From: Draconibacterium aestuarii
GTDB lineage: Bacteria; Bacteroidota; Bacteroidia; Bacteroidales; Prolixibacteraceae
NCBI GenBank assembly: GCA_026671195.1
Contig: JAPOHD010000027.1
Location: forward strand, 558,001-622,000
Length of the DNA: 64,000 bases
Reading direction: 5' to 3'
The translations under genes were made by a program, and so were the position numbers. This document shows positions 1-2,630 of the stretch, piece after piece. Each line of letters opens with the position of its first letter. The stretch's first letter is position 1. Below the pieces are notes generated by a model, which was not told the origin of the DNA, ran no database searches, and saw only the letters and a list, made by a program, of their open reading frames with translations.

Positions 1-181
1 TACCAGCACTAAAAAAATCAACGCTGTGTTGTTTAATTTGTGCAAGTCTTTCGGGGTCGTCTTTGTACGGCAGAAAACGAGCATTTACTGCTGGATTATT
101 CATGTGGGTATCGATTGCATCGTCCACTATTTTTTTTATACCCTGCGTCCCCCCAAGTCGTTCAAATAAAGTATCATTCAT
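1..181 (-). CDS. glbN: Truncated haemoglobin, group I (partial, 3' end outside window)
   Basis: The first 60 codons on the minus strand read MNDTLFERLGG, then GIKKIVDDAID and HMNNPAVNARFLPYK, the N-terminal pattern of group I truncated haemoglobins (2-on-2 globins). The family binds haem and O2 or NO and usually serves NO detoxification or O2 chemistry in the cytoplasm. The distal and proximal haem ligands lie beyond the visible part, so subgroup and function cannot be confirmed. The ATG at 181 is chosen because it begins the conserved N-terminus directly. The 5' region holds the first copy of the promoter-operator module shared with the two TonB_C/TPR genes to its right, so it is probably co-regulated with them. 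Confidence 0.8.
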   Translation of the reverse strand, partial: MNDTLFERLGGTQGIKKIVDDAIDTHMNNPAVNARFLPYKDDPERLAQIKQHSVDFFSAG

Positions 182-277: not shown

Positions 278-354
278 CAAATTTACTGCACTTAGCAAAG
301 GGGTAACTATCATTTTTAGACCAAAAAAAAGCAAAAAAAGACCAAAAGGTATTT
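278..354 (-). promoter_or_regulatory. Promoter-operator module, copy 1 (upstream of truncated haemoglobin)
   Basis: Read on the minus strand: an A/T-tract element (308-354) with two direct GGTC-type half-sites, CCAAAA on the plus strand, at 321 and 342 (21 bp apart). A 22-bp gap follows, then TAAATTTG (278-285), a match to the Bacteroidota -7 consensus TAnnTTTG. The same element with the same 22-bp gap occurs at 1411-1486 and 2555-2630. No good -33 TTTG is present at the expected distance, which suggests dependence on an activator bound at the repeats. Confidence 0.7.
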
Positions 355-451
355 AAAATGAAATATAGATCCGGGAATCTAATTTTAAAGCTTCAGAACG
401 TCAGTGTGGATCATTTTCCTTGAATAAAAATGTTTCGAATTAAGCAATAAT

Positions 452-476
452 AAAACCCGGAATTGCCCCCGGGTTC
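452..476 (-). terminator. Rho-independent terminator of TonB_C/TPR gene A
   Basis: Inverted repeat AACCCGG/CCGGGTT with a short loop; on the minus strand it is followed by a T-rich run. A closely similar hairpin follows the paralogous gene (1566-1592), so the terminator belongs to the duplicated unit. Confidence 0.75.
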
Positions 477-508
477 TTTTGTAAACGATATTTTGTTATT
501 TGTTTTAA

Positions 509-1240
509 TTAGTCGCCGGAGAGCATCGAAGTTAATAGCTCGAAGCTTTCTAAGTTTTTCAAATTTTCATCCAGGCTTGCAGTGTGAACATCAATTCCAC
601 CCAGTTCTTCAATTCTTGAAATTACTTGTTGGGCTGATTTAACTTGTCCCAATTCCGACATGCATATTGCATGCATAAATAGTAATCCTTTGTCGTATGG
701 CTTGTAGCGAATTGCTTTGGCAAAAAACTTTGAGGCACTTTTGGTTTTACCCTTAATAAGAAGTGTTTTTGCTCCTTTTGTATAGTACATGCTGGCAATC
801 TTCGAAAAGTCTTTGTATAGCGCAATCTGATCTGTCTCTCCAATTTTAACCGCAATGGATAGTTCCTTTTCCACAGGAACCGGAACTCCGTTGTCATAGC
901 CTGGTATCCACATGTTAGTCGTTTTCTTTAGAACTCGTACAACTTCTTTATCAATTAATGGTGAAACACTGTTTATAATTTTGATATCGCTTACCTGACC
1001 GGTTGGACCTACAACAAACTGAACTACTTCAGTTCCTTCATAAGCCAGACCAGTAACTTCCGGATAGACGAAATTTTCGCTCATGTATTGGTTAAGAGAT
1101 TTTTTCTGATCGGTGTTTTTGACCGCTGTAAATTGAGGATCACTAGCCTCGTGCTCTGATAATGTGTAAGGAGGTACTTCTTGTGCAAAAACGTATGCTG
1201 ATAAGCATATGCAGATAATTAGCATTTTAATTGTTTTCAT
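509..1240 (-). CDS. Exported TonB_C-domain protein with TPR-like tail, paralogue A
   Basis: 243 residues. A signal peptide (MKTIKMLIICICLSAYVFAQ, cleavage after about residue 19) is followed by a TonB C-terminal-like fold at about residues 45-130 (EGTEVVQFVVGPTGQVSDIKI, then a valine/lysine-rich strand region) and a TPR-like helical segment at about 150-215 (FFAKAIRYKPYDKGLLFMHA). There is no N-terminal membrane anchor after signal cleavage and no proline-rich spacer, so it is not a classical TonB; such proteins are annotated as energy-transducer-like and their role is unknown. It is a tandem paralogue of the gene at 1617-2333, colinear throughout, including the flanking operator and terminator. 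The start is supported by the signal peptide. It is probably periplasmic and monocistronic. Confidence 0.75.
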   Translation of the reverse strand: MKTIKMLIICICLSAYVFAQEVPPYTLSEHEASDPQFTAVKNTDQKKSLNQYMSENFVYPEVTGLAYEGTEVVQFVVGPTGQVSDIKIINSVSPLIDKEVVRVLKKTTNMWIPGYDNGVPVPVEKELSIAVKIGETDQIALYKDFSKIASMYYTKGAKTLLIKGKTKSASKFFAKAIRYKPYDKGLLFMHAICMSELGQVKSAQQVISRIEELGGIDVHTASLDENLKNLESFELLTSMLSGD

Positions 1241-1410
1241 GACTTTGAGTTTAATGTTTCTAACTTGTTCAAATTGTATTTTCTTGTTTCTGGTGCATTA
1301 CTATTCTACATTTAAGATTAATGACATATAACTATGGATGGAAAAATCACAAATTGTATAGGGTACGTTTGTTGCCGTGTTTTTCATGCCTGGGGCAAAG
1401 TTTTTTTTAA

Positions 1411-1486
1411 CAAATTTACGGCATGATATAAAGCGTGAGTTATCATTTTTGAATCAAAAAACAGCAAAAAAAGACCAAAAGGTATT
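1411..1486 (-). promoter_or_regulatory. Promoter-operator module, copy 2 (upstream of paralogue A)
   Basis: The A-tract element at 1441-1486 has CAAAA half-sites starting at 1455 and 1476 (21 bp apart). After a 22-bp gap comes TAAATTTG on the minus strand (1411-1418). The start codon of paralogue A (1240) lies about 170 bp downstream, leaving a long 5' leader. Layout and spacing match copies 1 and 3 exactly. Confidence 0.72.
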
Positions 1487-1565
1487 AAAATACTTGTGTT
1501 TTTGTGAATCGATAATTTTGGGGCGATTTCTGTTAAGATTTGAAGGGCTGGTTTAATACAAAAAT

Positions 1566-1592
1566 AAAACCCGGAATAACAACCGGGTTTTT
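1566..1592 (-). terminator. Rho-independent terminator of TonB_C/TPR gene B
   Basis: AAAACCCGG and CCGGGTTTT arms (9 bp) around an 8-nt loop, with a T-run on the minus strand. It ends the transcript of paralogue B about 25 bp after its stop codon. Confidence 0.8.
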
Positions 1593-1616
1593 GCGTGTAA
1601 AAATGGAGTAACCTTT

Positions 1617-2333
1617 TTATTCATTTGTCGAAAGCATTGCATTTATCTGTGCATAACTTTCACGCTCTTTTACGTTTTCTGCTATGGTAATCGAACGGTT
1701 GTCGATGCCACCCAGTTCTTCAATCCTTGAAACGGCTTGTTTGACTGATTCAACATCGCCCATTTCCGACATGCATAACGCATTCATAAAAAGTAATCCT
1801 TTGTCGTTGGGATTGTAGCGAATAGCTTTGGCAAAACATTTTGACGCAGCCTGTGTCTTCCCCTCGACAAGAAACTTTTTTGCTCCTTTAGTGAAATAAT
1901 TTCTTGCAACCTGTTGAAAGTTTGTTCCGTTGGGATTAATTTCAATTGTTATTTCTTTTTGAATAGCTACCGGAAATCCGTTGGTGTAACCAGGTGTCCA
2001 CATGTGATTGGTTTTTCGAAGTACTCGTATAATCTCCTGGTTGATATAAAACGAAACACCGTTTATAATTTTGAAATCGGAAACCTGACCCGATGGGCCT
2101 ATTACAAATTTAACTACAGCTGTTCCTTCTTCACTCCAGCCGTTATTTGAGCGGGGCTTAAAATTTTCGTCAATGAATTGTTCCAGTGACTTTTGGTGAT
2201 TGGTGTTTTCAACTGCAGTAAATTCAGGTGGATCATTGTTTCTGTCTGATAATGTATACGGAGGTACATTCTCTTGTGCGAATACGTATGTGGATACGAA
2301 TAAGCAGGCAATAAAAATTTTAATTGTTTTCAT
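1617..2333 (-). CDS. Exported TonB_C-domain protein with TPR-like tail, paralogue B
   Basis: 238 residues with the same layout as the neighbour at 509-1240: signal peptide (MKTIKIFIACLFVSTYVFAQ), TonB_C-like domain (GTAVVKFVIGPSGQVSDFKI at about residues 69-88) and a TPR-like C-terminus (CFAKAIRYNPNDKGLLFMNA). Most positions can be aligned between the two proteins without gaps except in the region around residues 130-145, where A has extra residues. Shared operator, leader and terminator show that a whole transcription unit of about 1.1 kb was duplicated. The function is unknown; cell-envelope location is inferred from the signal peptide. The AraC-type gene lies just upstream on the same strand, separated by operator copy 3. 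Confidence 0.75.
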   Translation of the reverse strand: MKTIKIFIACLFVSTYVFAQENVPPYTLSDRNNDPPEFTAVENTNHQKSLEQFIDENFKPRSNNGWSEEGTAVVKFVIGPSGQVSDFKIINGVSFYINQEIIRVLRKTNHMWTPGYTNGFPVAIQKEITIEINPNGTNFQQVARNYFTKGAKKFLVEGKTQAASKCFAKAIRYNPNDKGLLFMNALCMSEMGDVESVKQAVSRIEELGGIDNRSITIAENVKERESYAQINAMLSTNE

Positions 2334-2554
2334 GACTTTGAGTTTTAATGTAATGTTTGTGAACTTTTTAAAAAAAGACTTGTATTTTTCCTCCTTTCTT
2401 TGTTTAAATTGTTTTAGTTGTAACTATTGTTTTCTTTTCTGAATAAACAAATACTAACATATGTTCCGATTTATCAGGCTGGTAGCATCAAAAAAATCAA
2501 TTGGGTATGTATCGTTGGAAGTCTAACATCGTTGAGGAAAAGTTTTCCGTTCAA

Positions 2555-2630
2555 CAAATGTAAAGCAAGTTAAAACGTAAGGGGTATCAATTTTGATTCA
2601 AAAAAAAGAAAAAAAAGACCAAAAGGTATT
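2555..2630 (-). promoter_or_regulatory. Promoter-operator module, copy 3 (upstream of paralogue B)
   Basis: The A-tract element at 2585-2630 has CAAAA half-sites starting at 2599 and 2620 (21 bp apart), a 22-bp gap, then TACATTTG on the minus strand (2555-2562), again TAnnTTTG. It lies between the stop of the AraC-type gene (2657) and the start of paralogue B (2333). No hairpin terminator separates it from the AraC gene, so read-through from that gene is possible. Confidence 0.72.

Follow-up and report, generated by a model that had tools for sequence, protein, structure and literature searches.

Three short segments in a 64,000-nucleotide stretch of the Draconibacterium aestuarii genome (contig JAPOHD010000027.1, positions 558,001 to 622,000; here called the window) raise the question of why a truncated haemoglobin gene and two TonB_C genes are preceded by an element of the same geometry, and which protein might read it. 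In all three copies (A–C), on the minus strand, a 17-bp half-site, 4 bp and a second 17-bp half-site (a period of 21 bp) are followed after 22 bp by TAnnTTTG, the −7 box of Bacteroidota promoters. A first-pass annotation, made from the letters of the window, had described three copies with an exact 22-bp gap to this box and a CAAAA repeat 21 bp apart; both are found (Table 1), the repeat being TTTTG on the minus strand. We put at roughly 0.8 the probability that the element serves as operator and promoter for the product of the adjacent araC-type gene, which would be a class II activator with a tiny local regulon. The sites, their conservation, their spacing and their linkage to the regulator gene are results of computation.

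The element in the D. aestuarii genome

The likeness between copies A–C ends at the element edges. Pairwise identity was 0.88–0.94 for half-site 1, 0.71–0.88 for half-site 2 and 0.88–1.0 for the box; it was 0.32–0.50 for the 22-bp spacer and 0.26–0.31 for the 100 bp flanking the element on either side. Copy C starts 34 bp past the araC stop codon. When the 6.37-Mb genome was searched with the composite pattern, allowing up to three mismatches, three matches were obtained versus none for a reversed control pattern. A sequence-only profile of the element, built from 18 sites, recovered copies A–C at E values of 6e-19 to 2e-15, the next best match having an E value of only 0.12, and neither search revealed a further convincing or distant member of the element in this genome. 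TAnnTTTG alone, which gave 7,360 matches, was uninformative as a query.

Conservation within the genus

A query with the full-length regulator matched in 136 of 140 genomes of the family, in many of them only through the helix-turn-helix (HTH) part of other proteins. Taking a best match at E<1e-40 as presence, the gene occurs in 20 of the 37 genomes of the genus. Gene and site (E<1e-3) were found together in 18 of these 37, the gene only in two, the site only in none and neither in 17, an association with a Fisher p of 1.2e-8 for which the thresholds were chosen afterwards, shared ancestry was ignored and some of these sites had gone into the profile. At E≤2.3e-8 there were 24 sites in 17 of the 37 genomes: 17 lie directly 3′ of the regulator gene (one per genome), six are farther along the same locus (window copies A and B, one in G064 and three in G057), and one, in G060, is on another contig, where it also precedes a protein resembling the TonB_C targets. 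The next best profile match after these 24 is a weak one away from the regulator (G066:C4:2330057-2330117, E 2.6e-4).

Across 18 aligned sites, pairwise identity was 0.73 and 0.83 in the two half-sites, 0.36 in the middle of the spacer and 0.99 in the box. When the operator was sought in the window and loci L044-L077 with no box required, the next 70 bp held a box at one and the same distance in 19 matches and at a different distance in one; the remaining matches, mostly due to chance, were boxless. The training loci were excluded from the test of geometry because most had been found with the spacing.

At three loci next to groES/groEL (L060, L061 and L062), the similarity of the AraC homologues to the window protein begins only at about residue 124; HTH and element are both retained, the latter upstream of a lipoprotein-like gene (one without a Pfam match in L060). 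In L060-L061 the SCO4226-like part has degenerated, with HTH and element persisting.

Homologues outside the training set

A weight matrix for the half-sites, derived from 21 training sites of the genus, was used throughout, with scores clipped at −3 in both held-out tests. The first held-out set consisted of 27 homologues (29–44% identical), the remainder of 50 regulator rows after removal of 18 training loci and five paralogues (27–28% identical). Within 300 bp downstream of each stop codon, the highest-scoring tandem with a 21-bp period was compared with 300 dinucleotide shuffles, the box not being required. Several sites of this first set had already been inspected before counting; a second set, from two other families, was fetched afterwards, and 28 of its 31 loci were scored, three without a recognised AraC frame being dropped.

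A shuffle p≤0.01 was obtained in 19/27 loci of the first set and 13/28 of the second, in which 21 was also the best period among 17–26 in 16/28. TAnnTTTG stood at 22 bp in six and at 21 bp in 11 loci of the first set (together 17/27, with 0.035 loci expected by chance), and elsewhere in the following 50 bp in one other. The second set had it at 21 bp in 10/28 loci and elsewhere in three (0.018 expected), while the relaxed box TAnnTTT[GA] was present at 21 bp in 18/28 and elsewhere in the 30 bases examined in five (0.037 expected). Chance expectations were calculated from the frequency of the boxes in the window, 1/1524 per base for TAnnTTTG and 1/749 for TAnnTTT[GA]. The 22-bp gap of the first-pass annotation holds for all three window copies and is not universal, since the gap is 21 bp in 11 of the 17 positive first-set loci and in 10/10 of the second. 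Among individual Bacteroidota, Ilyomonas limi has the site at 21 bp, and Aestuariivivens insulae has the tandem site without a perfect box.

The N-terminal part of the regulator found matches in 8/295 and 10/395 genomes in wider searches (some partial, the window's own included) and in 48/199 and 8/201 genomes of two other families. The searches of this and of related genomes recovered the element, with matching geometry, 3′ of AraC orthologues. The earlier view that this is a real site and not merely copied DNA is upheld by its layout beside AraC orthologues within and beyond the genus and by the confinement of homology in the window to the element.

Loci L046, L047, L048, L050, L052 and L053 carry another tandem element (for example, near 12375 in L050) whose letters differ, ATGAT.CA or ATGA.TCA being repeated at a distance of 21 bp; it too precedes TAAATTTG or TAATTTTG by exactly 22 bp. 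Immediately downstream of it in L050, L052 and L053 are a cupin-like gene and then a paralogous SCO4226-AraC-type gene, and in L046 and L047 it is upstream of another gene and then an SCO4226-AraC-type paralogue. Its geometry is the same as that of the first element and its specificity would be different.

The AraC-type regulator

The C-terminal domain of the regulator is of the AraC type (PF12833, E 3.4e-18; PF00165, E 7e-12), and AraC-family structures were also matched. At E≤0.001, Pfam recognised only this HTH and the SCO4226-like domain over the 368 residues, and neither a kinase nor a receiver domain was found. A profile of 26 sequences compared with PDB sequences matched SCO4226, class III cyclases and AraC DNA-binding domains along the regulator. 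The AlphaFold model has a mean pLDDT (predicted local distance difference test) of 83.6, and a fold search with it returned cyclases and AraC-type regulators.

The central part of the protein (about residues 84–244) resembles the class III adenylyl cyclase Ma1120 (PDB 4wp3) by both profile and model. Two aspartates of class III cyclases bind metal. In an alignment with 4wp3, both positions (FTDI and GDGF) are occupied by other residues in the window protein, which is probably not catalytic because it lacks both of these aspartates; an active cyclase was rejected for this protein on the same ground. The L069 homologue has aspartate at both positions.

Residues 1–79 match the nickel-binding protein SCO4226 (PDB 4oi3; PMC4186839). 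His23, Trp41 and Asp43 are at the same positions as in SCO4226 and are invariant in 12 aligned sequences. The Ni-1 ligands of SCO4226 are Asp43, Ser46 and His76 (PMC4186839), and of these only Asp43 is kept: the window protein has Gln at position 46, where homologues mostly have Arg, and Ser or Ile stands in place of His76. Nickel as the signal is unsupported, given that Ser46 and His76 are not kept. We treat the SCO4226-like and cyclase-like parts as putative sensor folds. In several genomes of family f173, matches to the SCO4226-cyclase-like part are clustered, with two to four neighbouring copies (G938:C18, G994:C16, G989:C7, which is L172, and G892:C1, which is L171).

A proposed mechanism and its alternatives

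What we infer is binding, activation, a signal or ligand, and the role and physiology of the targets. Each 17-bp half-site would be occupied by one AraC monomer, and the two monomers, separated by two helical turns, would lie on the same DNA face. TAnnTTTG has been mapped at −12 to −5 in Flavobacterium psychrophilum (PMC9723704). If the box is placed there, the proximal half-site would extend from about −51 to −35 and its distal partner from about −72 to −56, and the proximal monomer would occupy the place of a −33 box and recruit RNA polymerase to a promoter that has only a −7 box, as in class II activation. At E. coli pBAD, araI2 and araI1 occupy the same proximal and distal positions, respectively. 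Class II activation requires the proximal half-site to adjoin the upstream (−35/−33) position of the promoter at a fixed distance from the box, which is the arrangement seen (22 bp in the window copies, 21 or 22 bp in 17/27 and 21 bp in 10/28 held-out loci). The predicted transcripts would start at about 273, 1406 and 2550, and the regulon in this genome would comprise three local units, the two TonB_C genes and the truncated haemoglobin gene.

The lack of a good −33 box noted in the first pass stands in part: TTTG is absent 19–21 bp before the box in 18/18 aligned sites, and is found 18 bp before it in 2/18. The absence fits activator dependence, and is weak evidence for it because a −33 motif was likewise not identified in F. 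johnsoniae (PMC7366714). A scan for sigma-70 promoters gave no signal (7 found versus 14.9 expected).

Several observations count against the proposal. Half-sites 1 and 2 agree at only 10/17, 7/17 and 6/17 positions within copies A, B and C, respectively; over the 21 training sites agreement ranges from 4 to 13 of 17, with clear repeats (13) in G035 and G049. With half-sites agreeing so poorly, the 'direct repeat' of the window is mainly the TTTTG core that had been read as CAAAA. Regulators of the AraC/XylS family bind direct rather than inverted repeats with a period of about 21 bp; tandem sites of this period adjoin the gene in the held-out sets, the repeat itself being imperfect in the window copies and evident in only some relatives. 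The fixed 22 bp of the 18 training loci is partly circular, and the TTTG at 18 bp means that a −33-like box is present in some sites. A perfect box at 21 or 22 bp is missing from 10/27 and 18/28 held-out homologues, and a site at p≤0.01 from 8/27 and 15/28; there was no recognisable site at L054, L072, L076 and L133 of the first set or at L157, L159, L165, L171 and L172 of the second. Within the genus, G047 has the regulator gene and no site in the 273 bp of contig 3′ of it, and G063 has only a 33%-identical homologue, also without a site. Sites beside a gene would be co-inherited with it even if another protein read them.

An activating role, as opposed to a repressing one, is deduced solely from position, a further point against the proposal. 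That the regulator acts at these sites as a repressor or in both senses is improbable, although position does not prove sign and AraC itself can repress through a DNA loop to a remote site (PMC6018408). A tandem arrangement upstream of a −7 box lacking TTTG at 19–21 bp fits activation, and the profile found no further site in the genome.

It is likewise quite improbable, by our estimate, that a direct-repeat binder encoded elsewhere reads the element, whether a LytTR response regulator or another AraC or hybrid two-component system (HTCS) protein. LytTR proteins also bind direct repeats. In Bacteroides, HTCS motifs consist of direct repeats with an average distance of 21 bp (PMC3878776), and HTH domains of long proteins, probably HTCSs, were common matches in the genomes of the family. 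Against such a reader, the element tracks the AraC gene (18/2/0/17 over 37 genomes) and stays beside homologues of 29–44% identity while the downstream gene changes. We prefer an AraC-type to a LytTR-type reader because, at E<1e-3, the element goes with the AraC gene, being found in 18/20 genomes with it and in 0/17 without; this co-occurrence supports the AraC-type half-sites, one of the two options proposed at first. The linked regulator is of the AraC type and has no LytTR domain; no search of unlinked LytTR genes was made.

Least credible, and very unlikely, is that copies A–C are alike only through promoter DNA copied in the TonB_C duplication, with an inherited geometry of no function: the TonB_C genes are indeed tandem paralogues, and the single element of G066 (in the order AraC, element, TonB_C-like, haemoglobin) suggests that the duplication may well also have given rise to copy A, but the 100-bp flanks are unrelated, half-sites and box are conserved where the spacer is not, and the layout also occurs with regulator homologues that are followed by a gene other than TonB_C. 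Copying is likely to describe how copies A–C arose; as a complete explanation, it is contradicted by the data from other species. The operator-promoter of an AraC-type activator is the reading we retain in what follows.

Putative target genes and locus order

Table 1. Features of the window discussed in the text, with positions counted from its first nucleotide
Feature	Position	Strand	Details
Copy A	278..345	minus	half-site 1 329-345, half-site 2 308-324, spacer 286-307; profile E 1.7e-15
Copy A box TAAATTTG	278-285	minus	upstream of truncated haemoglobin gene
Copy B	1411..1478	minus	half-site 1 1462-1478, half-site 2 1441-1457, spacer 1419-1440; profile E 6.2e-19
Copy B box TAAATTTG	1411-1418	minus	upstream of TonB_C/TPR gene 509-1240
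Copy C	2555..2622	minus	half-site 1 2606-2622, half-site 2 2585-2601, spacer 2563-2584; profile E 4.7e-17
Copy C box TACATTTG	2555-2562	minus	upstream of TonB_C gene 1617-2333
AraC-type regulator, 368 residues	2657..3763	minus	SCO4226-like 1-79, class III cyclase-like about 84-244, AraC HTH 258-366
Truncated haemoglobin gene	1..181, runs off window start	minus	PF01152 (Bac_globin) E 2.3e-9 at G000:C20:557822-558172; proposed copy A target
TonB_C/TPR gene	509..1240	minus	PF03544 E 1.5e-8, PF14559 below cut-off; proposed copy B target
TonB_C gene	1617..2333	minus	PF03544 E 2.8e-6; proposed copy C target
Terminator-like hairpin	452..477	minus	after TonB_C/TPR gene 509-1240
Terminator-like hairpin	1566..1591	minus	after TonB_C gene 1617-2333; in repeat pair with 445-478

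The two TonB_C genes are tandem paralogues whose larger matching blocks are 71–84% identical. Both had been labelled TonB_C/TPR; TonB_C applies to both, and TPR has only a sub-cut-off match in 509-1240 and none in 1617-2333, where the label derives solely from relatedness to the former. Since terminator-like hairpins, which form part of a repeat pair, follow both TonB_C genes, the three targets are probably separate units. The number of matches in a terminator consensus scan was not above chance (3 found versus 2.8 expected in shuffles).

The first gene after the best site, with the box required, was tabulated for the 50 regulator rows. Within the genus it mostly resembles the TonB_C proteins of the window, a TonB_C match being confirmed for L045. 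In 11/50 rows, one within the genus (L063) and the rest outside it, the first gene encodes a truncated haemoglobin as judged from its N-terminal sequence; globin matches were confirmed for L043, L124 and the G057 haemoglobin in L044. In L055 the first gene product is cupin-like, with a match below the Pfam cut-off; in L058 it is a flavin adenine dinucleotide (FAD) oxidoreductase of the berberine-bridge type, and in L136 a single-domain protein resembling SCO4226. In the second held-out set, 5/28 first genes resemble truncated haemoglobins by sequence (L149, L153, L154, L158 and L173), with L153 lacking a convincing site. Two further Bac_globin globins are encoded in the D. aestuarii genome (G000:C13:49875-50207 and C66:124603-124953), at places where the profile found no element.

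The order of genes and sites differs between members of the genus: AraC, site, haemoglobin in G049; AraC, site, TonB_C-like, haemoglobin in G066, with one element found in the locus; and AraC, two sites, TonB_C-like, site, TonB_C-like, site, haemoglobin in G057. We infer that the older arrangement may have been regulator, operator and haemoglobin, into which TonB_C genes with their own operator copies would have been inserted and duplicated in the genus.

Relation to known systems

At araBAD, a case of class II activation, E. coli AraC occupies two tandem 17-bp sites 4 bp apart, the proximal one adjoining the promoter. Like the proximal site proposed here, araI2 of the araI1/araI2 pair recruits RNA polymerase when bound (PMC4760080). 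Unlike AraC, the window regulator has no arabinose-type sensor, and its sites have other half-site letters, a Bacteroidota −7 box and no looping site that we could find. Closer in phylogeny are 16 HTCSs of Bacteroides thetaiotaomicron, with direct repeats averaging 21 bp apart (PMC3878776), so the operator type was already known in Bacteroidota. These proteins share with the window regulator an AraC-type DNA-binding domain, and their predicted tandem sites form a direct-repeat motif averaging 21 bp (PMC3878776), to which the imperfect repeat of the window, with its 21-bp period, is comparable; a sequence profile of the regulator HTH has its best PDB match in an HTCS (12aw). An HTCS unites a periplasmic sensor, a histidine kinase and a receiver in one chain. 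In contrast, the 368-residue window regulator combines SCO4226-like and cyclase-like domains, has no kinase or receiver that could be found, and has proposed targets outside polysaccharide use; the fixed distance of 21 or 22 bp to the −7 box was not met in the excerpted HTCS description (PMC3878776).

No fusion with AraC was evident in the titles and abstract starts of the open-licence papers that mention DUF4242 or SCO4226 with nickel, and the word AraC is absent from PMC4186839. As far as titles and abstract starts of open-licence papers show, three things are new: this class of regulator together with its operator, the rule of 21 or 22 bp to the −7 box, and the link to haemoglobin.

As a tentative extension, which we hold to be somewhat short of an even chance, an ancient one-component regulator (a metal-type ferredoxin fold, a mostly dead cyclase and AraC) may, in much of the Bacteroidota, have carried its operator and promoter as a single fixed cassette 3′ of its own gene while the downstream gene was swapped (truncated haemoglobin, TonB_C, FAD oxidoreductase, cupin, SCO4226-like). 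It might sense a nucleotide or a metal or gas signal, and its targets could form a single, hitherto unnoticed stress or redox response.

A regulator of this domain make-up thereby gains a predicted operator, a promoter geometry and target genes from sequence alone. The class II geometry of AraC is suggested to extend to promoters that have only the Bacteroidota −7 box, and the truncated haemoglobins of this group are linked, by sequence, to a dedicated regulator.

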